Source: Polyangiaceae bacterium (GTDB lineage Bacteria; Myxococcota_A; Polyangia; Polyangiales; Polyangiaceae). Taken from it: a DNA stretch of 64,000 bases. The stretch's first letter is position 1; each line of letters begins with the position of its first letter. Of the stretch, positions 21,372 through 34,796 are shown in pieces. The DNA lies in NCBI GenBank assembly GCA_019637265.1, contig JAHBVY010000004.1:62001-126000 (forward strand), read 5' to 3'. Made by a program: the position numbers and the translations under genes. The notes beneath the pieces were generated by a model that was given only the letters and a program-made list of their open reading frames with translations, made no database searches and was not told where the DNA came from.

Positions 21372-23003
<1,632 letters not shown>

Positions 23004-23294
23004 TCACTTCTCGATGACGCCGAGGATGTCATCCTCGCGCAAAATCAGGTGCTCTTCCCCGTCGAGCTTCACCTCGGTGCCGGCGTACTTGCCGAACAGC
23101 ACGATGTCGCCCTTCTTCACGTCGAGCGCGCGCACGGTGCCATCTTCCTGGACCTTGCCATTGCCGACGGCGATGACCTTGCCCTCGATCGGCTTCTCCT
23201 TCGCGCTGTCCGGGATGATGATCCCGCCCTTGGTCTTCTCCTCTTCCTGCACGCGCTTCACGATCACGCGGTCTTGCAGCGGTCGGATATTCAT
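23004..23294 (-). CDS. groES: 10-kDa co-chaperonin GroES
   Basis: A 96-residue co-chaperonin with the full family pattern: [21 protein letters not shown], the mobile loop [66 protein letters not shown]. It caps the GroEL ring. I chose the ATG at 23294 by homology; the longer open frame upstream is the untranslated leader. It forms an operon with groEL. Confidence 0.98.
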
Positions 23295-23404: not shown

Positions 23405-23431
23405 TTAGCAGCCACCGGCGGCGACTGCTAA
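23405..23431 (-). promoter_or_regulatory. CIRCE-like (HrcA-type) operator of groESL
   Basis: TTAGCAGCC, a spacer of exactly nine bases, then GACTGCTAA. The canonical CIRCE is TTAGCACTC-N9-GAGTGCTAA, so the outer TTAGCA/TGCTAA and the N9 spacing are kept and the inner bases differ. It begins 9 nt downstream of the -10 element of the promoter at 23441-23468, where CIRCE is normally found. The same arms recur at 32697-32723. Confidence 0.8.
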
Positions 23432-23440
23432 CGGCGCGGG

Positions 23441-23468
23441 AACGTAGCCACCTGTTTCATGGAGTCAA
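23441..23468 (-). promoter_or_regulatory. Sigma70-type promoter of groESL
   Basis: On the minus strand TTGACT (23468-23463), a 16-nt spacer and TACGTT (23446-23441). The expected start point falls just before or in the CIRCE-like operator, leaving a leader of roughly 140 nt to groES. Confidence 0.65.
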
Positions 23469-23499
23469 CCGGCGCCCCCAAGTTTTGTTGTCCACAGGC

Positions 23500-23523
23500 T
23501 AACTCATTGATTTCATTGAGTTA
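23500..23523. promoter_or_regulatory. Palindrome upstream of the groESL promoter
   Basis: TAACTCA and TGAGTTA form perfect 7-bp arms around ten bases (ttgatttcat). It lies about 30 bp upstream of the -35 element in a short AT-rich island and could bind an activator or repressor. Confidence 0.5.
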
Positions 23524-23576
23524 TTCTGAGTGTTGGGCTCGGGGGTTTGGCATCGCGCTGGATGACGCGCTGCGTC

Positions 23577-23602
23577 GTAGGGCAGGCCCCCGTGCCTGCC
23601 CT
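23577..23602. repeat. REP-like palindrome (GTAGGGCAGG family), copy 3
   Basis: GTAGGGCAGGC, a short GC loop, then GCCTGCCCT. It shares the GTAGGG-GG layout with the copies at 3145, 6206 and 46549, although the arm sequence differs. Confidence 0.6.
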
Positions 23603-23620
23603 CTGGCAGCGACTTAGTCA

Positions 23621-23636
23621 GCGGTGCCGTCCAACC
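23621..23636 (+). repeat. GCGGTGCCGTCCAACC dispersed repeat
   Basis: One of five copies in the window; others at 28236-28254 (inverted), 28315-28333, 34816-34834 and 47033-47053. All lie between genes. Confidence 0.75.
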
Positions 23637-23795
23637 GGCTCTTCAACCCTTGCTCAGCATCGAGGTGCTCTCCAAGACCGCACGGATCCTCCAGTAAGGT
23701 CGGGGACCGTGGTCGCAGTGCGCCCCGACGCATGAACAACGCGTTCAGAGACGTTCATGGCGCATCAGGAGGGAGTGAACCCCCCCCCTCCTCCC

Positions 23796-24389
23796 TCACT
23801 GGACGCGGATCAACGCGAAGGGGCGTGAGGTGCCGTTCAAGGTGCCGCGCCCCACGATGTCGCCGCGGCTGTTCACGTCGACCGCGCTCGTGAGCACCCA
23901 GCCCGAGCCCGCTGGCAAGTAGTCGTTCAAGTCGCTGATCACCCCGTCGCGCCACAGCACGGCGCGGTTCGCGAGCCCCGCGATCTGCTCCACCTGCCCC
24001 ACGACCCAGCCCTGATCCGTGATGGCGACGCAGGTGCCACCCACCTCGTGATAGCCCTCGTCACAGTCGCAATGGTCGCCATGGGGGTCACCATGCGGCC
24101 CGCAGGGGTTCGTCGCGACCACGCAGGTGCCGCCCACCTCTTCGTAGCCGGGGTCACAGTCACAGTGGTCGCCATGGCTGTGCCCATGGGCACCACAGGG
24201 GTCGTCGGTGGCGACGCAGCTGCCGTCCACCTCCTCGAAGCCAGCGACGCACTGACAACTGCCGCCCTGGCGCTCTTGGTTCTCCCCGCACGCGGCCGCC
24301 TTGGGCTCTTCGTCATCGCTCCCGCAGCCCACGACCAGCGCCAACCCAACCCACCAGGGCGCCCAATTCTTCATCCGCAACAGGCTCAT
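23796..24389 (-). CDS. His-rich EGF-like lipoprotein with HAF-like tail
   Basis: A 197-residue predicted lipoprotein: signal MSLLRMKNWAPWWVGLALVVG, then Cys22. Three tandem Cys-rich EGF-like units with a 31-residue period follow (residues 34-58, 65-89, 96-120). The last two carry histidine clusters: HGHSHGDHCDCD (H68/H70/H72/H75) and HGDPHGDHCDCD (H99/H103/H106), which look able to bind zinc or a similar metal. The C-terminal 70 residues (AVLWRDGVISDLNDYLPAGSGW...AVDVNSRGDIVG) resemble a single HAF extracellular repeat. The start at 24389 has a good ribosome site (AAGGAGAATCGG). An element shared with the COG0523 region lies 58 nt upstream (24447-24461). A periplasmic metal-binding role is inferred. 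Confidence 0.75.
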   Translation of the reverse strand: MSLLRMKNWAPWWVGLALVVGCGSDDEEPKAAACGENQERQGGSCQCVAGFEEVDGSCVATDDPCGAHGHSHGDHCDCDPGYEEVGGTCVVATNPCGPHGDPHGDHCDCDEGYHEVGGTCVAITDQGWVVGQVEQIAGLANRAVLWRDGVISDLNDYLPAGSGWVLTSAVDVNSRGDIVGRGTLNGTSRPFALIRVQ

Positions 24390-24446
24390 CCGATTCTCCT
24401 TCAGCTCGAGGCACCCCCCGACACGCAAGGGCCTCTTGTCTCAAAC

Positions 24447-24461
24447 GCAATTACGTTGCAA
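24447..24461 (-). promoter_or_regulatory. Candidate metal-responsive operator (TTGCA-N5-ATTGC), copy 1
   Basis: On the minus strand TTGCA-acgta-ATTGC, preceded by CTTT. The same TTGCA-N5-ATTGC layout is at 25221-25235, and the 9-mer CTTTTGCAA is common to both regions. It lies 58 nt upstream of the His-rich lipoprotein start. Confidence 0.5.
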
Positions 24462-24542
24462 AAGAAATCCGGCTGTACCTCAGCGCGCGAGCCCACGAAA
24501 ACGCCGGTCGTAGGGCCCGCGTTCAGGTGCGCCCCGCGCAGC

Positions 24543-25208
24543 TCAACCCACGGTGCTGAGCGTCCACACGAGCCGCACCACGCCCGTGTTCTCGATGGGC
24601 GGTGACCGATGCACCGCGCCTCGGCTGTCCGGGTGCAGCGCGCCCTTCATCAAGAGCACGTCGCCAGCGGCGGCGCGGCGCACCCAGCTCGCGTCGCGAA
24701 CCGCGCGAGCGTTCGCCTGGGTGGGGCAGGCCGTGGGGTGCTCCAACGCCTCGCGACGCACCGCCTCCTCGGGCAGCCACTCCGTGCCCGGGCCCACGTA
24801 GGTCGAGAGCAGGCGGTAGCGCACATAATCACAGTGAAACTTGCGACACTGATCGCCGCGGATGGCGGCGAGCTGCGCGCGCACCATCCCGGGCCCAGCG
24901 TGCTCCGTGAACCGGCGGAGCAAGCGCCGCAGGTCCCGCTCGAGCCACGCGCGCACCGGCTCCTCCAAGCCACTCGTCAGAGACCTATACCACCCCTCAT
25001 CGCCCCATAGCTCCAGCGCCTCACCCGTGCGATCCAGCGTGGGTGCGCTGGGCGCCCAAGCAGCGAGCTGGCGCGCCGCTCCCGGAGGCAACGCGCGCCG
25101 CCAACAAACCAAGTCGACGTGAGGCTCACGGATCGCGGCGAGCCCCGCCGCCGTCACCCCCACGCGCCACGACCCACTTGGTGCACCCAATCCGCTCGGC
25201 TGGTTCAT
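24543..25208 (-). CDS. DUF1826 family protein
   Basis: A 221-residue cytoplasmic protein with the DUF1826 landmarks: [30 protein letters not shown] in the middle, and [12 protein letters not shown]...[23 protein letters not shown] at the end. The FHxD and VHRSPP histidines look like the iron ligands of a 2-oxoglutarate dioxygenase-like double-stranded beta helix, but the activity is not established. In Proteobacteria the family is often found beside COG0523 GTPases in zinc-starvation (Zur) regulons. Here it is divergent from such a GTPase and shares its 93-bp promoter region, which supports the same role. Confidence 0.85.
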
Positions 25209-25220
25209 CCCTCCATTTTA

Positions 25221-25244
25221 TTGCACTTGTATTGCTTTTGCAAT
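25221..25244. promoter_or_regulatory. Candidate metal-responsive operator in the DUF1826/COG0523 divergent promoter
   Basis: TTGCA-cttgt-ATTGC at 25221-25235 overlaps a palindrome ATTGC-tttt-GCAAT at 25231-25244. The surrounding 50 bases are the most AT-rich of this part of the window. It lies 13 nt from the DUF1826 start and 58-81 nt from the GTPase start, so one bound repressor could control both. Zur is the expected regulator from gene content; the motif itself is not a textbook Zur box. Confidence 0.5.
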
Positions 25245-25301
25245 TTGATTACATCTGCTCCCGCGTCGAGGCGCGGCGCGCAGCCGCGAGCCCTCCGCGC
25301 G

Positions 25302-26558
25302 ATGAAGGCGATGAACACGAACCTGGAGCGACCCCCCATGCCCCCCCTCCCCGTCACCGTCCTGAGCGGCTTCCTAGGCGCCGGGAAGACGACCTTACTG
25401 AACCACGTCCTCGCCAACCGTGAAGGCCGCCGCGTGGCGGTCATCGTCAACGACATGAGCGAGGTGAACATCGACGGCGAGCTCGTGAAGCGCGGTGACG
25501 CGGCGCTCGGGCGCACCGAAGAGCGGCTGGTCGAGATGACCAACGGCTGCATCTGCTGCACGCTGCGAGAAGATCTGCTGGTGGAGGTGACGCGCCTCGC
25601 CGCCGAGGGACGCTTCGATCACCTGCTGATCGAGTCGACGGGCGTCGGCGAGCCCATGCCCATCGCCGCCACCTTCTCCTTCCGCGATGAAGCAGGGCAC
25701 AGCCTGTCCGACGTCGCGGCGCTGGACACCCTGGTGACGGTGGTGGACGCCGAACGCTTCCTCGACGACTACCACTCGGCCGACGACCTGAGCGATCGCG
25801 AGCTCGCGGTGGGCCCCGAGGATGAGCGCTCGCTCGGCGACTTGCTCGCGGAGCAGGTCGAGTTCGCGAACGTGCTGGTGCTCTCGAAGGTAGACCGCGT
25901 CACTGACGAGCACGTCGCGCGGCTCGAGGGGGTGCTGCGTCATCTGAACCCCAGCGCGCGCGTGGTCCGCGCGAGTCACGGCGCGGTGCCGCTCGACGCG
26001 GTGCTGGGCACCCAGCTGTTCGATCCGGAGCGCGCCGCGGAGTACGCGGGGTGGGCGAAGGAGCTGGCAGGTGAGCACACCCCGGAGACCGAAGCCTTCG
26101 GCATCATCAGCTTCGTTTACCGAGTGCGCCGCCCGTTCCATCCTGAGCGCCTCCACGCGCTGTTCGCGCGCAGCTGGCCGGGAGTGCTGCGCGCCAAGGG
26201 CTTCTTCTGGTTGGCGAGCCGGATGGACGGCGTCGGCTCCTGGTCCATCGCAGGGCGCTCACGTCAGGTGGGCTGCGCTGGCATGTGGTGGGCCGCCGCG
26301 CCCCAGGAGCTGTGGCCGGAGGACACCGAAGCGCGCGCGGAGATCGACGCGCGCTGGCAGGCGCCGTTCGGCGATCGGCGCCAAGAGCTGGTCATCATCG
26401 GCTCGAAGATGGACGAAGGCGGGCTCTGCGCGGCGCTGGATGTCTGCCTCCTCACCGACGCCGAGCTGATGGAGGGTGAGCAGGCTTGGCAGCGCTACCC
26501 CGATCCGTTCCCGCCCTGGAGCGCCGAAGAGGACGAGCTGACTCAAGAGGCGAGTTAG
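25302..26558 (+). CDS. COG0523 family GTPase (CobW/ZigA-like metallochaperone)
   Basis: A 418-residue G3E GTPase from the ATG at 25302 (other ATGs at 25311 and 25338 are possible). Walker A is GFLGAGKTT (residues 23-31), the metal-binding CxCC motif is C83-I-C85-C86 in [12 protein letters not shown], and the G4-type motif is LSKVDR. The C-terminal CobW_C domain starts at about 262 ([23 protein letters not shown]). Such GTPases deliver zinc or other metals to target enzymes when the metal is scarce. The neighbouring DUF1826 gene and the His-rich lipoprotein point to zinc rather than cobalt. There are no cobalamin synthesis genes in the window. Confidence 0.9.
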
Positions 26559-26608
26559 CCTGTAATACTGACGATATGCCCGCGGCGCTCCTCGTCGTCT
26601 GGCGTGAG

Positions 26609-26640
26609 GAGGCTCGAGGTCTGATGAAGGCTCGAGCCTC
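26609..26640. terminator. Stem-loop between convergent COG0523 and ompA-like genes
   Basis: GAGGCTCGAG and CTCGAGCCTC form a perfect 10-bp stem with a 12-nt loop, 50 nt past the GTPase stop and overlapping the stop codon of the OmpA-family gene (26639-26641). No T-run follows on either strand, so a role as a transcript-end structure is likely but unproven. Confidence 0.5.
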
Positions 26641-27895
26641 ACCACAGCCAGCCGAGGGACACCTCGAGGTAGGGGGCGGCGTCGAACAGGTCTTCCATCA
26701 GGTCGTCGAGGCCCGCTTGGTAAACGTCCGCGTCGAACGCCGGTAGGTTGCTGTTGAACCTGGAGCGCCCCAGCTCCCCGCGCTCACCCTGCACGCCGAG
26801 CAGCGCCGCGATGCGGAAGCGGCCGCTCGAGCGGTACCCGTAGCCCACGCCCAGGAAGCCGCCGAGCGAGGTGGCGGTGGCCTCATAGTCAGCTTGAATG
26901 CCTGGTGTGTCGGACTCCCCCTCGATGCCGTACGAGCTGAACATCGCGCCCACGTCGAAGACGATGCTGTGCCGCTCCATCGGCCAGAAGCGCAGGCGCC
27001 CCGGCACGGTGAAGTTCACCGCGGTGCCGTCCACCTGCACGAAGCCCCGCTCGGTCTCGAAGGTGCTGACGCCCACGGAGAGCCCAGCGGACACCTCGAG
27101 CCAACAGGTCAGCTCGGCCGCGAAGGCGGCGCCGGCCACCGCGTTCGGCCCCAAGAGGTTGACGTGCAAGCCCAAGCGCTGTGGGCATTTCCCCGAGGAA
27201 TCATCCACCTCAGCCACGGCGGGGCGCGCTGAAGGCTCCTGAGCCACGCCCAGCTCCTCCACCTCCTCGTCTCGCGGCGCCTCCTGCTCCGCCTCACGCG
27301 CGAGCGCTGCGGCGCCGGCGGTCACCGTGAACACCGCGCGGCGGTTCTTCTGCCAGGCCTCCTGACAAGGCGCCGGGTCCGCGGGGGCGCGGTTGTGACA
27401 CTCCGGCGGCTCCGGCATCGCCGGGCGGCTCTCACCGTAGCCCACCGAGGTGAGGCGACGCTCGTCGATGCCCTCCTCCACGAGCCGCTTCTTGAGGCTG
27501 GCCGCGCGACGCTTCGACAGCTCTCGATTGTAGATCTCGCTGCCGCGTGAGTCCGTGTGGCCCTCCACTTGGAGGTGCACGTCAGGGTGACGTTGCAAGT
27601 AGGCGACCAGCTGCTTCAGCACCTCGGTGGTGCCAGCGTCATTGCGCAGCTCCGCGCTGTCGTACTCGAACTCGATGTCACCGCGGTAATCGAGGCGACC
27701 GTCAGCGTACTGAATCACAGGGCGCCAGCGCGCCTCGCCCCCCTCCAGCTTCACTGAGCCGCTCGCCTCCACGCCCCCGGTGCGCGCCCCCGCGCTACCA
27801 CGAGCGCTAGCGCTCCCGCGCGCCACACACCCCAGCGCGCTCACCGAAACCAAAGCCAACGCCACACAGCCCTCCCAGCTTTTCACGAGCCTCAT
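26639..27895 (-). CDS. OmpA-family lipoprotein with C-terminal barrel-like domain
   Basis: A 418-residue predicted lipoprotein: signal then Cys23 in SALGC, starting at the ATG at 27895 with a strong ribosome site (GGAGGTGAG). An OmpA/MotB peptidoglycan-binding domain lies at about residues 70-195 (IEFEYDSAELR, VEGHTDSRGSEIYNRELSKRR, SVGYGESRP, NRRAVFTV). After an acidic Glu/Ala/Pro linker (205-235) there is a Gly-rich beta domain of about 180 residues ending in an aromatic residue (VSLGWLW), like an outer-membrane barrel. The order, with the peptidoglycan-binding domain first and the barrel-like domain last, is reversed compared with classical OmpA. Two paired cysteines (CHNRAPADPAPC) sit in a loop of the OmpA domain. 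Confidence 0.85.
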   Translation of the reverse strand: MRLVKSWEGCVALALVSVSALGCVARGSASARGSAGARTGGVEASGSVKLEGGEARWRPVIQYADGRLDYRGDIEFEYDSAELRNDAGTTEVLKQLVAYLQRHPDVHLQVEGHTDSRGSEIYNRELSKRRAASLKKRLVEEGIDERRLTSVGYGESRPAMPEPPECHNRAPADPAPCQEAWQKNRRAVFTVTAGAAALAREAEQEAPRDEEVEELGVAQEPSARPAVAEVDDSSGKCPQRLGLHVNLLGPNAVAGAAFAAELTCWLEVSAGLSVGVSTFETERGFVQVDGTAVNFTVPGRLRFWPMERHSIVFDVGAMFSSYGIEGESDTPGIQADYEATATSLGGFLGVGYGYRSSGRFRIAALLGVQGERGELGRSRFNSNLPAFDADVYQAGLDDLMEDLFDAAPYLEVSLGWLW

Positions 27896-28235
27896 GCTCA
27901 CCTCCACAAGGCGCCTCACGCGGCGCTTCACCTATTTATTACTACGTTGAAACACATCTTCAGGCGCGATCCGTGTGCCCACCACGCGCCTCATCACGCT
28001 CAGCGAACGGCACCACCCAGCGCCCAGCCCACGTAGCCAGGTGCCTGAACGACTGATCACGATGCGTGACTCGAGCCGCCTCCAGCGATGCCGAAGCGCA
28101 CACAAAGCATGCAACGTGCCACCCCCCCCAAGAAATCAAGGGTTTCGTGCACGTGAGCACCGAGAGAGCCCCCGGCAATATCCCCACCGAAAAGCAGCGC
28201 TCGAGTCAGCTCACGAAGCAGGTTGGAGGGTTCAG

Positions 28236-28333
28236 GGGGTTGGACGGCACCGCGTCGGTAAGTTCACACGAGACCGCACCGCTCGACGGCGCTCGAGCTC
28301 CCTGAGCCTCACTGCGCGGTGCCGTCCAACCCC
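28236..28333. repeat. 98-bp unit bounded by perfect 19-bp inverted repeats
   Basis: GGGGTTGGACGGCACCGCG at 28236-28254 and its exact reverse complement at 28315-28333 enclose 60 bp. The arm is the same sequence as the single GCGGTGCCGTCCAACC repeats elsewhere. The layout is that of a small non-autonomous element or of a hairpin-forming unit. Confidence 0.85.
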
Positions 28334-28469
28334 AAGAAAACCCGCGTTCAGCCTACGGAAACGGAGCGCACAGCGGGAACCAAGCGCAGGGGAGACGGAG
28401 CGCTACGGAAACCCTGCGCAGCGGAGAACCCAGCGGCGATGAAGCCAAGAGTCGGTGGATGTCGTCATG

Positions 28470-28525
28470 TTGCGCACCTTGTGCGCAAGGCCGCGATCGA
28501 TCGACTTGGCTGAGCGATCGATCGC
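28470..28525. promoter_or_regulatory. Palindromes upstream of the first Ser/Thr kinase
   Basis: TTGCGCA-N5-TGCGCAA at 28470-28488 is a perfect interrupted palindrome. GCGATCGATCG at 28493-28503 and the 12-bp palindrome GCGATCGATCGC at 28514-28525 follow. They lie 136-191 nt upstream of the kinase start. A related TGCGCAAA-C-TTTGCGCA palindrome is at 46666-46682. Confidence 0.5.
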
Positions 28526-28660
28526 GATCAGGCGTCAGGGCTTGCAGCAGGTTGGCAGGGGCGGTTACGGTGCGAGATCGCGCGCTCGCGTCTCTAGCCA
28601 GCTCGGTACTCGCGTTCGCAGTTCGAGAGGGTTGGGAGGCGGTGCGCAGGGAGGCGACGT

Positions 28661-30646
28661 ATGCAGCTCCAAGCCGGAAGTCAGCTCGCTCAGTACACCT
28701 TGCTCGAGCCCCTTGGTCGGGGAGGTCAGGCCACCGTGTGGCGTGTGCGCGATCCGCAGCAACCGGGCGCCGAGCTGGCGGTGAAGCTGGTGCCGCTGGT
28801 CGGGCGCACGCACACCCAGATCGAGCGCGTGAGACGCGAGGCGGACCAGCTACGTCAGCTGAGCCACCCCTCCATCGTGCAGGTGCACGGGACACCCATC
28901 GAGGATCCGCAGCGCCAGTGGCTTGGGGTGGTGATGAGCTACGTGGACGGTAAGTCGCTCGAGACGGCGATACGTCAGGGCGGGCTCTCCGCGCGGCATC
29001 GCTGGCTCGTGCTGCGTCACCTGACGGCGGCGCTGGCTCACGTGCATGAGCGGGGGCTCATTCACCGCGACGTGAAGCCGGACAACGTGATGTTGGTGCG
29101 CGACTTCTGGGAGCACCCAGAGGACGCTCGGCAGCTCAAGCTCGTGGATTTCGGCATCTCGGTGTCCACCACTGGGCAGCAGCCCCCACTGACTCAGGCG
29201 GGCTATGTCTCGGGCACCCCGCCCTACATGGCGCCCGAGCGGCTGAACCCGCACCACTTCCGCGAGCCCGCTGGGCCACGCCAGGACTTGTTCGCGCTGG
29301 GTGTGCTCGCGTGGCAGTTGTTCGAGCAAGGGCCTCACCCAACGGGGCTCCGCAGCAACGCGGGGCTACTCGACTTCGAGCGCGTCTATCGGGAGGCGTC
29401 CCGCATGACGTGGCCACCCGCCACGGGGAACGTGGAGCTGGATGAGCTGCTCAGGGCCACCTTGCCCATCCACGCTAGCGAGCGGGCGCGCGACGCGGGC
29501 GCGTTGCTCACCCTGGTGGATGCGTTGGTACAGCGCGTGGGCGTCGTCACCGCCCCGCTCGACCCGTACGACGGCCTGCCCACTGAGATCTCGCTCCCGC
29601 CCACCACGGAGGACATCCCGCTCCAAGCGTCACCACCTCAGTACCACGCGCCACGCGCAGCACCTCGGGCAACCCCGCACGTCGCCACCCAGGATCCCGC
29701 CACGTGGTCAGTCCCCACCACTAATACTGGGGTCGCGGTCCCCACGCTCCCCACGCAGCTCCCTACGGCCCACGCAGCACCTCCTACCGCAGGACCTTGG
29801 GTGGGGCCTCAGCACCCAGCGATTCCACTGACTCAGTCGGCGGCCGCTCACACGGCGCCTTCAGCGCCTCATGGCGCGCGGCGGATGAACTGGGGCGCGA
29901 TCGGCGGCATCACCTTCGGGTTGGGCGCCTTGTTGCTGCTTGGCGCGGTCTTGCTTGGCGGCGGTACGTGGGTCCTGACGAACCAGCCTGCTGGAGCGAG
30001 CATCCCTCCACTCGCGAGCACTGGCGCACCGTCCCCGGCGCTCGGCGGGGATCCACCTCCACAGCAGCCTGCGCCTCAGGCTGCGCCTGCGCCTCAGGCT
30101 ACGCCTGCGCCGCAAACGAAACCAGAGCCCGACTCCGTGCCCAGCGGCTGCGACCCAGAGGCGCCGTGTGTTTGGGCGACACCCAAGCGCACCTGCTGTC
30201 CCTCCGGCTTTGATTGCGGCGGTCCCTGCGGAGGAGCCATTCCAGCTAGCGAGCGCTTCCTGCTTCGCTACGGCGGTGGGGGGGACGGCAAGGTGACGCT
30301 CGAGCGCTCAGTGGTCGGTGGCCGGGTGTGCACCAGTATCCCGGGCAGCAAGGGACGCATGTGCTTCCCGGTCACCGAAGGCGACATCACCCTCAAGACG
30401 CGGCATCCCATCACGGGTGGTGATCTCGCCCGTGGTATCGACGTGCAGGTATACGACGCGAGAGGGAGGCTCATCGCGAGCGTAAACTACCGTCAGCCCT
30501 TCACCCGTGGCGTGACGTGCAAGGGAATCCTCGTAAAAGGCTTCACCGGCGACCCTCGCGTAAAATTAGTCAGTCTATTTGTAGATCCGGAAGGTCAAGC
30601 ACCCCGACGCTGTGAAGGAAGGCAGCTCAGCTTCGGCCAAGACTAG
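28661..30646 (+). CDS. Transmembrane Ser/Thr protein kinase (PknB-like), copy 1
   Basis: A 661-residue Hanks-type kinase. The kinase domain (about 12-290) has all catalytic parts: the Gly-rich loop GRGGQATVWR, the lysine in LAVKLV, HRDVKPDN, DFGIS and the activation-end motif GTPPYMAPE. A 15-residue insert lies between HRDVKPDN and DFG. A Pro/Thr/Ala-rich linker (about 300-410) leads to one membrane helix (about 412-440), then a Pro/Gln/Ala-rich stalk and a C-terminal extracytoplasmic domain of about 165 residues opening with a Cys-rich knot (SGCDPEAPCVWATPKRTCCPSGFDCGGPC). The ribosome site is GGGAGG. The second kinase follows closely and is a paralogue over the whole length. Confidence 0.95.
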   Translation: MQLQAGSQLAQYTLLEPLGRGGQATVWRVRDPQQPGAELAVKLVPLVGRTHTQIERVRREADQLRQLSHPSIVQVHGTPIEDPQRQWLGVVMSYVDGKSLETAIRQGGLSARHRWLVLRHLTAALAHVHERGLIHRDVKPDNVMLVRDFWEHPEDARQLKLVDFGISVSTTGQQPPLTQAGYVSGTPPYMAPERLNPHHFREPAGPRQDLFALGVLAWQLFEQGPHPTGLRSNAGLLDFERVYREASRMTWPPATGNVELDELLRATLPIHASERARDAGALLTLVDALVQRVGVVTAPLDPYDGLPTEISLPPTTEDIPLQASPPQYHAPRAAPRATPHVATQDPATWSVPTTNTGVAVPTLPTQLPTAHAAPPTAGPWVGPQHPAIPLTQSAAAHTAPSAPHGARRMNWGAIGGITFGLGALLLLGAVLLGGGTWVLTNQPAGASIPPLASTGAPSPALGGDPPPQQPAPQAAPAPQATPAPQTKPEPDSVPSGCDPEAPCVWATPKRTCCPSGFDCGGPCGGAIPASERFLLRYGGGGDGKVTLERSVVGGRVCTSIPGSKGRMCFPVTEGDITLKTRHPITGGDLARGIDVQVYDARGRLIASVNYRQPFTRGVTCKGILVKGFTGDPRVKLVSLFVDPEGQAPRRCEGRQLSFGQD

Positions 30647-30666
30647 CTCCGCGTGCCCAGCACACC

Positions 30667-30722
30667 GTTAGCCCAACGTACTTACCTCAGCCCGCGGCAT
30701 ATCGTCAGCCAAACGTATTTAG
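30667..30722 (+). promoter_or_regulatory. Direct repeat between the two kinase genes
   Basis: GTTAGCCCAACGTACTTAC (30667-30685) and GTCAGCCAAACGTATTTAG (30704-30722) match at 14 of 19 positions and are 37 nt apart. They lie 21-76 nt upstream of the second kinase start and may be binding sites of a regulator or processing signals. Confidence 0.45.
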
Positions 30723-30742
30723 TCGAATCACAGCGCACACCG

Positions 30743-32668
30743 ATGCAAGCCGGAACTCAGCTCGATCGCTACCGACTGCTCGAGCCCCTGGGGAGAGGGG
30801 GTCAAGCTGCGGTGTGGCGCGCGCGCGATCTGTTGGCGCCGGGCGGCATCGTCGCGCTGAAGCTGGTGCACTTGGTTGGGCGCAGCCCCACGCAGGTCGA
30901 GCGGGTGCGGCAGGAGGCGCGCCAGCTGCAGCAGCTCCATCACCCGTCCATCGTGCAGGCGCACCGGCAGTTCGAGGAGCCGGAGCTGCTCGGTGTGGTG
31001 ATGAGCTACATCGACGGTCAGTCACTCGACGCGGCGATTCGCAAAGGCGGGCTCTCTCCGGAGCACCGTTGGTGGGTGCTCCGTCACCTGACGGCGGCGC
31101 TCGCCTACGTGCACGAGCGGGGCGTCGTGCACCGCGACGTGAAGCCGGACAACGTGGTGCTGACCCGCGACTTCTGGGAGCACCCTGAAGATCCAAGCCA
31201 ACTGAAGCTGGTGGATTTCGGCATCGCGGCGCCGCTCTCGGGGAAGAAGCGGCTCACCCAAGAAGGCTGCACCCCCGGGACGGCGCCCTACATCGCGCCG
31301 GAGGTGGTGACGCTCTCCCACTTCGCTTCCCACCCGGGGCCACCGCAAGATCTGTTCGCGCTCGGGGTGCTCGCGTGGCAGCTGTTCGATCACCCAGACC
31401 ACCCCACGGGCCTCGCCATGAGCGCGAACCTGTTCAGCTTCGCCGCAGCCTACCGCGAAGCGGACCGCGCCCACTGGCCACCAGCCACGGGCGACGCGGC
31501 GCTGGATGACCTGCTCCGCGCCACGCTCCCCTTGCACCCCGACGCGCGCGCACAGAACGCCGGCGAGCTGCTCACGCTGGTGGACGCGCTGATCGTGCAG
31601 CGCGCCTCGATGGTCAGCGGTGACACCATCGTGAGCTATGGGTCGATTGGTCAGTCAGGTATGCTGCCCGATACTGACCCGACCCACCCCACGACCAGCA
31701 CCGGCGTGGAGCTGCCCACCACAGCGGATGACCCAACGCCGCCAGGACAGCCACCACCCCCTGCATCGTCAGCACGACCACCCCCTCAGCCTCAAGCAAG
31801 CGGACGGAGGGGGACTTGGTATCTCGAAGGCCTCCCCGATCTCACCCCCTTCGCCCTACCGACCATCAACACCAGCGAGGCTCCCCCCGCCACGCACAGC
31901 AGTCCAGCATACTCGCCGCCGCCAGCCTACGACGCGCAGCGCTCTCATGGGTCACCCTACACACCGGCAGCTCGTCTGACATCACCTCACGGCGCGATGC
32001 AAGGAGCGCCGGGGCAAAGACGCTCAAGCTCGGTCGGTGGCTTCATCGCAATGCTCGGCGCTTTGGTCCTCAGCGTTGCCGTCATCATCACTGGTGCATG
32101 GCTACTCTACGAGCGAGCTTCCAAAGACCCTTTGTCCTCGAACCCCGCGACCCCAACACTGGCACGCCACCCTGAGACGCCACCAGCAACATGGCTCCCA
32201 TCGGGATGCAACGGCCCACTCTGCAGCAGCAAGGAGTGCTGCATGTCCGGCTTCAGCTGCAACGGCCGCTGCTACGAATACCTCGGCCCCAATGAGAGCT
32301 TCTTGCTCCGCTACAGTGGTATCGATCCGTTGCTTGATCACAGAGGAGGTGTGGTGTGCTTTGTCGTCTCGGGCACTTCGCGACACACCTGCGTCGCTGT
32401 CACTGACGGCGGGCACCCCCAACCGCGCCTAGCCGTGACCGGGGGTGATCTCGCCCGCGGAATTGATGTGCACGTGTACAACGCGAACGGGAAGCTCCTC
32501 GCGAGCCATTGGAAGTATCGCCGGGACTTCCAACGCGGGGTGATGTGCGAGGGGTTCTGGGTAACATTCACCGACCCCGCCGTGAATGTAGTCAGTTTCT
32601 GGGTCGATCCGCCAGACCAAGCACGCCAACGCTGCGAGGGCTCTCAGCTCGTCGTTAGCCAAGAGTAG
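30743..32668 (+). CDS. Transmembrane Ser/Thr protein kinase (PknB-like), copy 2
   Basis: A 641-residue paralogue of the kinase just upstream, starting at the ATG at 30743 by alignment (MQAGTQLDRYRLLEPLGRGGQ against MQAGSQLAQY in copy 1). HRDVKPDN, DFGIA and GTAPYIAPE are intact. The 290-residue kinase domain is strongly conserved between copies; the Pro/Ser/Thr-rich linker is not. One membrane helix lies at about 438-463. The extracytoplasmic part again opens with a Cys knot (SGCNGPLCSSKECCMSGFSCNGRC) and keeps ESFLLRYSG and the VTGGDLARGIDVHVYNANGKLLAS core. The pair looks like a tandem duplication that kept the sensor fold and changed the linker. No clear ribosome site precedes the ATG. Confidence 0.93.
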   Translation: MQAGTQLDRYRLLEPLGRGGQAAVWRARDLLAPGGIVALKLVHLVGRSPTQVERVRQEARQLQQLHHPSIVQAHRQFEEPELLGVVMSYIDGQSLDAAIRKGGLSPEHRWWVLRHLTAALAYVHERGVVHRDVKPDNVVLTRDFWEHPEDPSQLKLVDFGIAAPLSGKKRLTQEGCTPGTAPYIAPEVVTLSHFASHPGPPQDLFALGVLAWQLFDHPDHPTGLAMSANLFSFAAAYREADRAHWPPATGDAALDDLLRATLPLHPDARAQNAGELLTLVDALIVQRASMVSGDTIVSYGSIGQSGMLPDTDPTHPTTSTGVELPTTADDPTPPGQPPPPASSARPPPQPQASGRRGTWYLEGLPDLTPFALPTINTSEAPPATHSSPAYSPPPAYDAQRSHGSPYTPAARLTSPHGAMQGAPGQRRSSSVGGFIAMLGALVLSVAVIITGAWLLYERASKDPLSSNPATPTLARHPETPPATWLPSGCNGPLCSSKECCMSGFSCNGRCYEYLGPNESFLLRYSGIDPLLDHRGGVVCFVVSGTSRHTCVAVTDGGHPQPRLAVTGGDLARGIDVHVYNANGKLLASHWKYRRDFQRGVMCEGFWVTFTDPAVNVVSFWVDPPDQARQRCEGSQLVVSQE

Positions 32669-32696
32669 CTCCGGCACGCAACTCACTTCCCGCGCT

Positions 32697-32723
32697 TTAG
32701 CAGCCGGCTCACCCGACTGCTAA
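32697..32723 (+). promoter_or_regulatory. Second CIRCE-like operator, upstream of the 32906 gene pair
   Basis: TTAGCAGCC-ggctcaccc-GACTGCTAA: the two arms are identical to those of the groESL operator (23405-23431) and the spacer is again nine bases but of different sequence. The arms extend by two bases on each side (CT...AG). TTCCCGCGC stands just before the arm here and also between the -10 and the arm at groES. It lies 28 nt past the kinase stop and 183 nt before the next start codon. Confidence 0.7.
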
Positions 32724-32905
32724 AGAACCGCGCGGGGGCCGTGAGGGTTTGTTGGCCGGGGCCGTCTACCTCCCACACACTCTATTCAAGGATACCCAGG
32801 CTTCGTGCCGCCACCTCGTGGGCTGGCCGTGTGCTCCGCAGCACGCGGTTCGGCGCGTCACCTCGAGGTCCTCGGCACGCCGGGGATCGCCGAGAGGAGA
32901 ACACC

Positions 32906-33517
32906 ATGACTGACCACGAGCACTCCCCAACCATCGAGCTCGGTGCGGACGTGGGCGGCTTCTTCCAAGAGGCCGTCGGCGAACGCGCCCGGCGCGGAGG
33001 CTATGAGGCCTCCGACGCCACCGTGACTTACGTCGGCGCGCTGCTCGCCGACTACGCTCGGCCGGACAGCTTGAGCCAGGAGGCGCTGAGCCGCCCCGTC
33101 ACCCTGCTCCTCAGCGAGGCGCAGCAGTGCCAGGGGCTCGAGCGCTTCGAGCGCCTGCGCGGCCTGGGGGACGCCGTGCTCTACATCTCGAGCTTCTTCT
33201 CGGAGCACATCGAGCGGCGCGGGGTGGAGCTTGGCTACGTGCGTCGCGTGGGCGCCACCGCCTATCACACCGCCGCCGCGATGATGGGGCGCGACCACAC
33301 GGGGCCCGACGTGTTCAGCGAGCTCGGCAGCAAGTTCGATATGTTCGCGGCGCTGCTCGCGGAGGTAGCGGAGTCACTGCGCGCGGCGCAGAGCATCACC
33401 TCCACGGACGTGCTCAAGCTGTATGAGCGTTGGACGCGCACTCGCTCGGCGCCGCTCGCCGAGGCGCTGGCGCGCGCTGGCCTCACGCCGATCACGGGGA
33501 GCGCCACCGTCCACTGA
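32906..33517 (+). CDS. Conserved hypothetical protein behind a CIRCE-like operator
   Basis: A 203-residue, mostly helical, soluble protein with no signal peptide and no family that I can name. Visible features are an acidic N-terminus (MTDHEHSPTIELGADVGGFFQEAVGERARR), a helix-rich core (SRPVTLLLSEAQQCQGLERFERLRGLGDAVLYISSFFSEHIERRGVELGYVRRVGATAYHTAAAMM) and a C-terminal amphipathic helix. The ATG is preceded by GAGAGGAG. The next gene starts 13 nt after its stop, so they form a two-gene unit. The operator at 32697-32723 suggests control together with groESL and hence a role in protein quality control or stress; this is inference from regulation only. Confidence 0.8.
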   Translation: MTDHEHSPTIELGADVGGFFQEAVGERARRGGYEASDATVTYVGALLADYARPDSLSQEALSRPVTLLLSEAQQCQGLERFERLRGLGDAVLYISSFFSEHIERRGVELGYVRRVGATAYHTAAAMMGRDHTGPDVFSELGSKFDMFAALLAEVAESLRAAQSITSTDVLKLYERWTRTRSAPLAEALARAGLTPITGSATVH

Positions 33518-33530
33518 CATCGAGGCACGC

Positions 33531-34130
33531 ATGAGCCGCACCGCTCGAGCCCTACGCCGCGCCGCCTCCGACGTTCAGGCGCGGCTCGCGGGCTACTACC
33601 AGCTCGAGCCGGGCGTCCCCGTGGCAGACTACGTTTTGCCCACCGCGCCCGGCTCGCGCGAGACGCTGCTCGTTCGTCAGGTTGGCGATCATTTGGAGCT
33701 GCGGCTGCTGCTCCCCAAAGACGTGAGCCTCGGCCCTGAGCTCCACCGCGCGCAGCCGACCGATGGCTTCCTTCAGTTGGTGGAGGGGGTGAGCCACTTC
33801 ATGCTGGTGGTGGAGCGCGCGCGGCGCGGGCTCCCCACCACGCAGCTGGAGCTGGAGCTTCAAGCGGAGGTGGACAAGTTCGCGCTGCTCGGCGGCGAGC
33901 TCCCGCCCCACGCCGGGCGCCACATTCACCAGCGGCTGTATGAGCAGGTCAGCTTCCTACACCACGCGGGCAGCGAGCAAGGCGCGCGCTATCGCCTGGC
34001 CAATGGACTCGCCGCGCGCTTCGTCCACCGCCTGATCGGCCGTCGCCCCGCCCTGAAGCGTCGAGCGCTTCAGCGCTTCCACGGCGCAGGCCAAGCGGAG
34101 AAGCTGTGGCTCGTAGCGCGCGGCACTTGA
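33531..34130 (+). CDS. Conserved hypothetical protein, second gene of the pair
   Basis: A 199-residue soluble protein of unknown function. It is helix-rich and charged, with LEPGVPVADYVLPTAPGSRETLLVRQ, a strand pair (VGDHLELRLLLPKDV) and FLQLVEGVSHFMLVVERARRGLPTTQLELELQAEVDKFALL followed by a basic C-terminal third rich in Arg and His (HIHQRLYEQ, GRRPALKRRALQRFH). No enzyme motif is visible. It follows the 32906 gene by 13 nt and should be read from the same transcript. Confidence 0.75.
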   Translation: MSRTARALRRAASDVQARLAGYYQLEPGVPVADYVLPTAPGSRETLLVRQVGDHLELRLLLPKDVSLGPELHRAQPTDGFLQLVEGVSHFMLVVERARRGLPTTQLELELQAEVDKFALLGGELPPHAGRHIHQRLYEQVSFLHHAGSEQGARYRLANGLAARFVHRLIGRRPALKRRALQRFHGAGQAEKLWLVARGT

Positions 34131-34154: not shown

Positions 34155-34796
34155 ATGGGTGAGATGACTCATCGTACGGTGCTTCACGCCATGGTCGTGG
34201 CGCTCTCGGTCGCCGCCTGTAGCAACGCGGAGGAGGCGGCGCCTGGGCGCGACGCGGGGAGCGAGGCGGGGCTGACCGAGGCGGGCGTGTGCAACGCTCG
34301 CGAGACTCAGCACCCGAGCTTTGGTCAAGAGCACGTGCCGCGTTGCTCCCAGGTGAGCTACGAGACGAGCCCGCCCACCTCCGGGAACCACTACGGCAAC
34401 TGGCCAGAGTACCGCGTGTACGAGCGGCCGTTACCGCACGGATTCATGGTGCACGCGCTGGAGCACGGCGCGGTGGTGCTCTCCTACAACTGCCCGGAGG
34501 GGTGCGCCGAAGAGGTGGCCGCCGCCGAGCGCTGGATCGCGGAGGAGCTGCCGGGGGACGTGTTCTGCGCCTCGCAAGGCATGCCACGCCAGCGCGTGAT
34601 CTTGACGCCCGACCCCAAGCTCGAGAGCCGCTGGGCCGCCGCCGCCTGGACCTGGTCGCTCACGGCGGACTGCTTCGATGAAGGCGCTTTCATGGCCTTC
34701 TATCAGGCGCACTATGACCGTGCGCCGGAGCAAATCTGCTCTGATGGCATCCCGATCAGCGTGGACGCAGGGATCCCGGAGGACTGCGGGGAGTAG
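34155..34796 (+). CDS. DUF3105 lipoprotein
   Basis: A 213-residue predicted lipoprotein (signal around MTHRTVLHAMVVALSVAA, then Cys). The mature part matches DUF3105: SYETSPPTSGNHYGNW, then HGFMVHALEHGAVVLSYNC with its conserved HxxEHG, and a later segment ILTPDPKLESRWAAAAWTWSLTADCFD. It carries eight or more cysteines, which suggests disulfides outside the cytoplasm. The family has no established function. An ATG at 34164 would give a cleaner signal peptide. It is 24 nt downstream of the unknown gene pair and could belong to the same transcript. Confidence 0.85.
   Translation: MGEMTHRTVLHAMVVALSVAACSNAEEAAPGRDAGSEAGLTEAGVCNARETQHPSFGQEHVPRCSQVSYETSPPTSGNHYGNWPEYRVYERPLPHGFMVHALEHGAVVLSYNCPEGCAEEVAAAERWIAEELPGDVFCASQGMPRQRVILTPDPKLESRWAAAAWTWSLTADCFDEGAFMAFYQAHYDRAPEQICSDGIPISVDAGIPEDCGE

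Follow-up and report, generated by a model that had tools for sequence, protein, structure and literature searches.

A CIRCE-type operator ahead of P1-P2, a gene pair that adjoins groESL across Myxococcota

In delta-proteobacteria, the reported targets of the HrcA repressor and its CIRCE operator are only groESL, hrcA-grpE-dnaKJ and rpoH (PMC545781). In Myxococcus xanthus, the groEL genes are under HrcA/CIRCE control and a neighbour protein that binds HrcA has been documented (PMC9040617). On co-expression in E. coli, the HrcA of M. xanthus needs GroEL/GroES to be soluble (PMC5406781), and GroE dependence of HrcA has been described (PMC5406781, PMC9040617).

We analyzed a stretch of 64,000 nucleotides from a Polyangiaceae genome (hereafter the window), in which an operator of this type stands ahead of groESL and a second copy stands ahead of two genes that we call P1 and P2. 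The features of the window are, by position:

21372 to 22994, minus strand: groEL, a 540-aa open reading frame that, used as query, retrieved groEL beside groES in related loci
23004 to 23294, minus strand: groES (Pfam Cpn10, 5e-37)
23405 to 23431, no strand: groES-side CIRCE-type operator TTAGCAGCC-N9-GACTGCTAA, exact match, starting 9 nt past the groES -10
23432 to 32696, no strand: separating stretch of about 9.3 kb, recognised by comparison with a same-genus contig (L171), in which about 130 bp lie between the groES-side flank and the P1-side operator
23434 to 23442, minus strand: TTCCCGCGC, overlapping the end of the groES -10
23441 to 23468, minus strand: groES promoter as predicted from sequence (-35 TTGACT at 23463-23468, 16-nt spacer, -10 TACGTT at 23441-23446)
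32687 to 32695, plus strand: TTCCCGCGC, one base ahead of the P1-side operator
32697 to 32723, no strand: P1-side CIRCE-type operator TTAGCAGCC-N9-GACTGCTAA, exact match
32906 to 33517, plus strand: P1, 203 aa, all-helical in its model, with orthologues in relatives
33531 to 34130, plus strand: P2, 199 aa, alpha/beta in its model, with orthologues in relatives

The two operators of the window

As the original prediction had it, the arms of nine bases and the spacing of nine are identical at the two sites and the spacers are unrelated, agreeing at only 2 of 9 positions. A pattern search allowing up to three mismatches returned only these two sites in the window, where shuffled sequences give 0.02, and a search of the whole 5.7-Mb genome at up to two mismatches returned the same two and no others. 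When the arms were compared with those of CIRCE (TTAGCACTC/GAGTGCTAA), 15 of 18 bases were the same and 3 differed, and relatives carry arms graded between the window form and the consensus (TTAGCAGTC/GAGTGCTAA in G036, TTGGCAGTC/GACTGCTAA in L231). The genome also harbors one copy of hrcA (C15:141485-142138; PF01628, E=2.3e-41). By its sequence, the element at 32697 and 23405 classifies as a variant of the classical CIRCE of HrcA, as anticipated, short of the exact consensus.

The groES-side operator has the location relative to the groESL promoter and start that is typical of CIRCE, and the TTGAC-N16-TAnnTT layout of its promoter recurs in most relatives, where it stands about 10-14 bp ahead of CIRCE. 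On the minus strand, TTCCCGCGC lies two bases ahead of the groES-side arm, and its TT is the end of the good -10 TACGTT. The claim that TTCCCGCGC precedes the arm at both sites is thus correct when each gene is read on its own sense strand, and incorrect on any other reading. For P1, no sigma-70-like promoter was recognised in the window in a scan confined to that promoter type, and no consensus promoter positioned at the P1-side operators was recognised in relatives. On the sequence, the lack of a recognised P1 promoter is the main anatomical gap of the locus, and it leaves repression from the 32697 site anatomically unsupported.

The repeat at 32697 starts 28 bp past the stop codon of a kinase gene and could form a stem, and it might be nothing more than the transcription terminator of that gene. 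No T-run follows the stem, however, and the one terminator-like match nearby belongs to another stem, a weak one (32731-32743). In most relatives, moreover, the neighbor across CIRCE is a divergent groES and not a kinase gene. The missing T-run and the context in relatives rule out this alternative, which the original prediction had set against itself, and we regard it as highly improbable.

The groES/P1 region in relatives

In the shared groES/P1 region, CIRCE (called at up to 4 mismatches of 18) was present in 49 of the 51 genomes that have hrcA versus 4 of the 11 in which no hrcA was found (Fisher p=2e-5, a value that overstates the evidence because kinship among the genomes is uncorrected). 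Several genomes have the canonical TTAGCACTC-N9-GAGTGCTAA there. The four CIRCE-bearing genomes without hrcA are assembled in multiple contigs, with a completeness of 77-91% in three of the four, and their hrcA may simply be absent from the assembly. Orthologues of the pair keep the operator: 54 of 69 upstream regions of P1 orthologues contain CIRCE within 4 mismatches. Since CIRCE in relatives is common to groES and P1, this by itself is no proof of control of the pair. Evidence independent of the shared CIRCE comes from the second operator on the P1 side, from the split copies in the window organism (G000) and in G029, and from L232.

To find such second operators, the best site in each region was masked and the remainder scanned at up to 5 mismatches. 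A separate, P1-side CIRCE-like site appeared in 22 of 49 genomes, 92-288 bp ahead of P1, against 0.14 expected from dinucleotide shuffles. By eye, the spacing of the paired operators follows no obvious helical phasing. In the same-genus genome (G001), the first bases of contig L171 are GCTAA, which would fit the right arm of a groES-side operator; the contig begins inside this presumed arm, so that only GCTAA is visible, and it holds no groES. Past GCTAA it resembles the groES upstream region of the window (local score 53 versus a maximum of 49 in 500 shuffles), and TTAGCAGCC-N9-CACTGCTAA follows about 130 bp further on, 250 bp ahead of P1. In the window organism, 9,265 bp lie between the operators, a stretch that contains an EGF-like open reading frame, DUF1826, GTPase-like and OmpA-like open reading frames and two tandem protein kinase genes. 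The kinase genes (28661-32668) have similar C-terminal cysteine-containing domains and are probably a local duplication.

From the sequence comparison, the account that best fits the window copies is that they are the two operators of a single ancestral groES/P1 region which has since split. The simplest history would begin with one region that held both operators, later separated by an insertion or some other rearrangement; an origin by operator duplication is less needed, because relatives already carry two. The notion that the operator recurs ahead of an unrelated gene is therefore not upheld: in place of a duplicate at an unrelated locus, the comparison with L171 points to a shared region that was split, and the copy at 32697 is most plausibly its P1-side half.

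A leftover of this split is also what the 32697 copy would be if CIRCE controlled groESL only and P1-P2 were constitutive neighbors. Relatives usually have their strongest CIRCE on the groES side, at the groES promoter, which favors this explanation, as does the lack of a recognised P1 promoter in the window and in relatives. In G028 and G003, P1 was not found beside groES and has no CIRCE, though hrcA is present; G043 has a 5-mismatch site only. However, the separate P1-side sites in 22 of 49 genomes far exceed the number expected. Between the two same-genus genomes, the P1-side operator is unchanged at 17 of 18 arm positions but at just 1 of 9 in the spacer, with flanks diverged as well, which indicates selection on the arms. 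In G029, a second split, of 2.1 kb, has CIRCE on each half, and in L232, where P1 is without groES in the stretch examined, a 3-mismatch CIRCE nevertheless stands ahead of P1. We therefore consider control of groESL alone unlikely, and favor an operator that serves P1-P2.

The association of the pair with groESL was computed from the positions of P1 and P2 orthologues relative to groES. P1 has a divergent groES neighbor within 2.5 kb, typically at 300-600 bp, in 62 of 71 P1-bearing genomes. Sorangium cellulosum, Minicystis rosea and Polyangium are among the carriers, and these also have CIRCE and a divergent groES. At 20 more distant loci, P1 adjoins groESL in 13, of which 12 are divergent and one (L235) is codirectional. 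CIRCE was found ahead of P1 at several class-level loci and was seen at none of the phylum-level ones. We conclude that P1, often followed by P2, adjoins groESL across Myxococcota, and that the divergent region groEL-groES <- CIRCE ... CIRCE -> P1-P2 is widespread in Polyangia. At L235 (7432-10857; genome G100, sampled at phylum level), P1-P2-groES-groEL run in one direction in a single-operon-like arrangement.

In family f10, none of the six genomes has a detectable hrcA. Five of them have P1, with no CIRCE ahead of it, and in four of these five P1 still adjoins groES. Because the pair stays beside groESL in lineages without CIRCE, HrcA is not the sole link between them. The f10 loci concerned are L080, L081, L082, L087 and L091, with groES/P1 divergence kept in 4 of 5 and intergenic regions of 174-247 bp.

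When 97 genomes were scanned with a degenerate pattern at zero mismatches, 69 CIRCE-like places were found, 62 of them ahead of groES (37 shared with P1). The remainder are the P1 copy of the window, three places ahead of groEL paralogues, two at fmdB-like genes and one that is apparently spurious. As almost all places are at groES, the regulon appears very narrow, with the pair as its main non-chaperonin candidate. In genus g19 (G019, G057), a 2-mismatch CIRCE lies 14 and 66 bp ahead of an fmdB-like zinc-ribbon gene (L268:2056-2082; L269:771-797), which is possibly another non-chaperonin target of HrcA.

In the genus of the window organism, operator and repressor are both shifted. The operator change is CACTC to CAG(C/T)C. 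In G000 and G001, the HrcA sequence is GQPVSSRTLSRKHGFDFS, and most of the other relatives aligned have GEPVGSRTL..KYGFDLS at that place; GQPVSSRTL thus stands against GEPVGSRTL or a close variant in most others, and the serine of PVSS occurs in this genus only among the aligned HrcA sequences shown. The operator change could fit co-evolution with HrcA, which is suggestive only, since CAG-type arms also occur elsewhere with an ordinary HrcA (G007).

The P1 and P2 proteins

P1 starts at the ATG at 32906, with AGGAG ahead, and is followed by P2 after a gap of 13 nt; in many relatives the P1 stop and the P2 start touch or overlap. This agrees with the tight two-gene unit that had been described from the window. 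Orthologues of P1 were found in 71 of 97 relatives and, in a phylum-wide sample of 284 genomes, in 126; those of P2 were found in 56 of 97 and 68 of 284, nearly always directly after P1. A DUF3105 gene at 34155 was rejected as third member of the operon, for among the loci examined it is present only in this and the same-genus genome. Directly behind P2, at 34155-34796, this lipoprotein-like gene keeps its place only in those two genomes among the loci examined.

Neither protein gave a convincing match in Pfam, NCBIfam or PDB sequences, so the pair does stand outside the nameable families. In the open-access papers searched, we found no mention of P1 or P2 and no expression data on them. P1 was modeled as all-helical (pLDDT 87.6) and P2 as alpha/beta (pLDDT 94), and neither model had a Foldseek match at E 0.001 or better. 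An all-helical shape is common among protein-binding adaptors. In a second structure search, the TPR-like, 14-3-3 and designed-repeat matches of P1 reached Z of about 7 or less, mainly over residues 47-153, and were discarded as uninformative.

For P2, each of the 50 rows listed by this second search has a fold of the zinc-peptidase type or with HExxH. In the best-scoring row, 172 of 199 residues aligned with a Z of 8.4 and an rmsd of 4.4, in a Z range where common arrangements also score. The invariant residues of P2 are E85, G86, S88, H89, E107 and E109 (E85-G-x-S-H89, E107-x-E109). P2 has no HExxH zinc motif, with the invariant E-G-x-S-H in its place, and was therefore not classed among the gluzincin metallopeptidases; a profile comparison with the M3 peptidases gave no match. 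Proteins of the gluzincin fold (M1, M2, M3, DUF885, M48) dominate the rows listed for the P2 model, whereas P2 itself has E-G-x-S-H, with E107 and E109 following 18 and 20 residues after H89. Structural resemblance and residue spacing, the sole basis of this reading, suggest that the invariant residues may form an HExxH-E site in degenerate form, lacking the catalytic Glu.

Given the groESL linkage, a new protein-quality-control function of the pair, as originally proposed, is a plausible candidate. The pair might instead modulate HrcA or the expression of the chaperonin without being a folding factor, an account of its function that is compatible with the preferred explanation of the operator. 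The persistent linkage to groESL across the phylum and the helical, adaptor-like shape of P1 speak for such a role. A precedent is the HrcA-binding MXAN_4468 beside groEL2 of Myxococcus xanthus (PMC9040617). However, P1 stands beside groES in f10, where neither hrcA nor CIRCE was found, which indicates that HrcA is not the sole target. In addition, neither P1 nor P2 matches a Pfam family, hence no response-regulator domain was seen in them. By this analogy, we consider a modulator credible but rather doubtful.

A proposed chaperonin partner and the described systems

Operators, hrcA, synteny, the second P1-side operator of relatives and the joint absence of CIRCE and hrcA are what we observed here. 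They make it probable that the site at 32697 is the HrcA operator, a CIRCE variant, of P1-P2, derived from an ancestral divergent groES/P1 region that is split in this genome. The original claim of an HrcA/CIRCE-type operator for the pair therefore stands as to the operator, with hrcA present and CIRCE kept by orthologues, but not as to a recurrence at an unrelated gene. We propose that the ancestral region was groEL-groES <- CIRCE ... CIRCE -> P1-P2 and that the split, with about 9.3 kb now between the operators, has left each gene set with its own operator copy. HrcA, which depends on GroEL for folding, would bind both operators and repress groESL and P1-P2 together. Heat or misfolded protein would occupy GroEL, render HrcA inactive and switch both units on, and P1-P2 would then work together with the chaperonin, either as an accessory factor or by modulating GroE or HrcA.

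Across the phylum the pair is tied to groESL by its position, and in Polyangia the operator is a further tie; both point to a chaperonin partner that has yet to be studied. We hold the pair to be a strong candidate for a chaperonin-system partner that has so far gone unrecognised. Tentatively, P1-P2 may form a hitherto unrecognised Myxococcota chaperonin accessory system, encoded next to groESL and under the same HrcA switch, in which P1 would be an all-helical adaptor and P2 a zinc-peptidase-like protein, rewired and non-catalytic, and the two would engage either GroEL or its substrates; in this genus the operator and the DNA-binding domain of HrcA may have changed together. Natural experiments are at hand in which co-regulation and operator-repressor co-evolution can be tested directly: the lineages that lack hrcA, the two loci that are split, and the operator/repressor pair that has shifted in the genus.

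The locus shares with the HrcA/CIRCE regulons of B. subtilis, delta-proteobacteria (PMC545781) and M. xanthus (PMC9040617) the 9-9-9 inverted repeat with TTAGC/GCTAA outer arms, the adjoining groESL promoter and an hrcA gene in the genome. It differs in the inner arm bases, CAGCC/GACTG in the window versus CACTC/GAGTG, and in a gene pair that carries its own operator, whereas the targets listed in PMC545781 include no such pair. With MXAN_4468-groEL2 of M. xanthus (PMC9040617), it has in common the physical linkage of a non-chaperone gene to a chaperonin gene that is under CIRCE control. MXAN_4468, however, is annotated as a response regulator (PMC9040617), whereas P1 and P2 match no known family and adjoin groES, mostly in divergent orientation.
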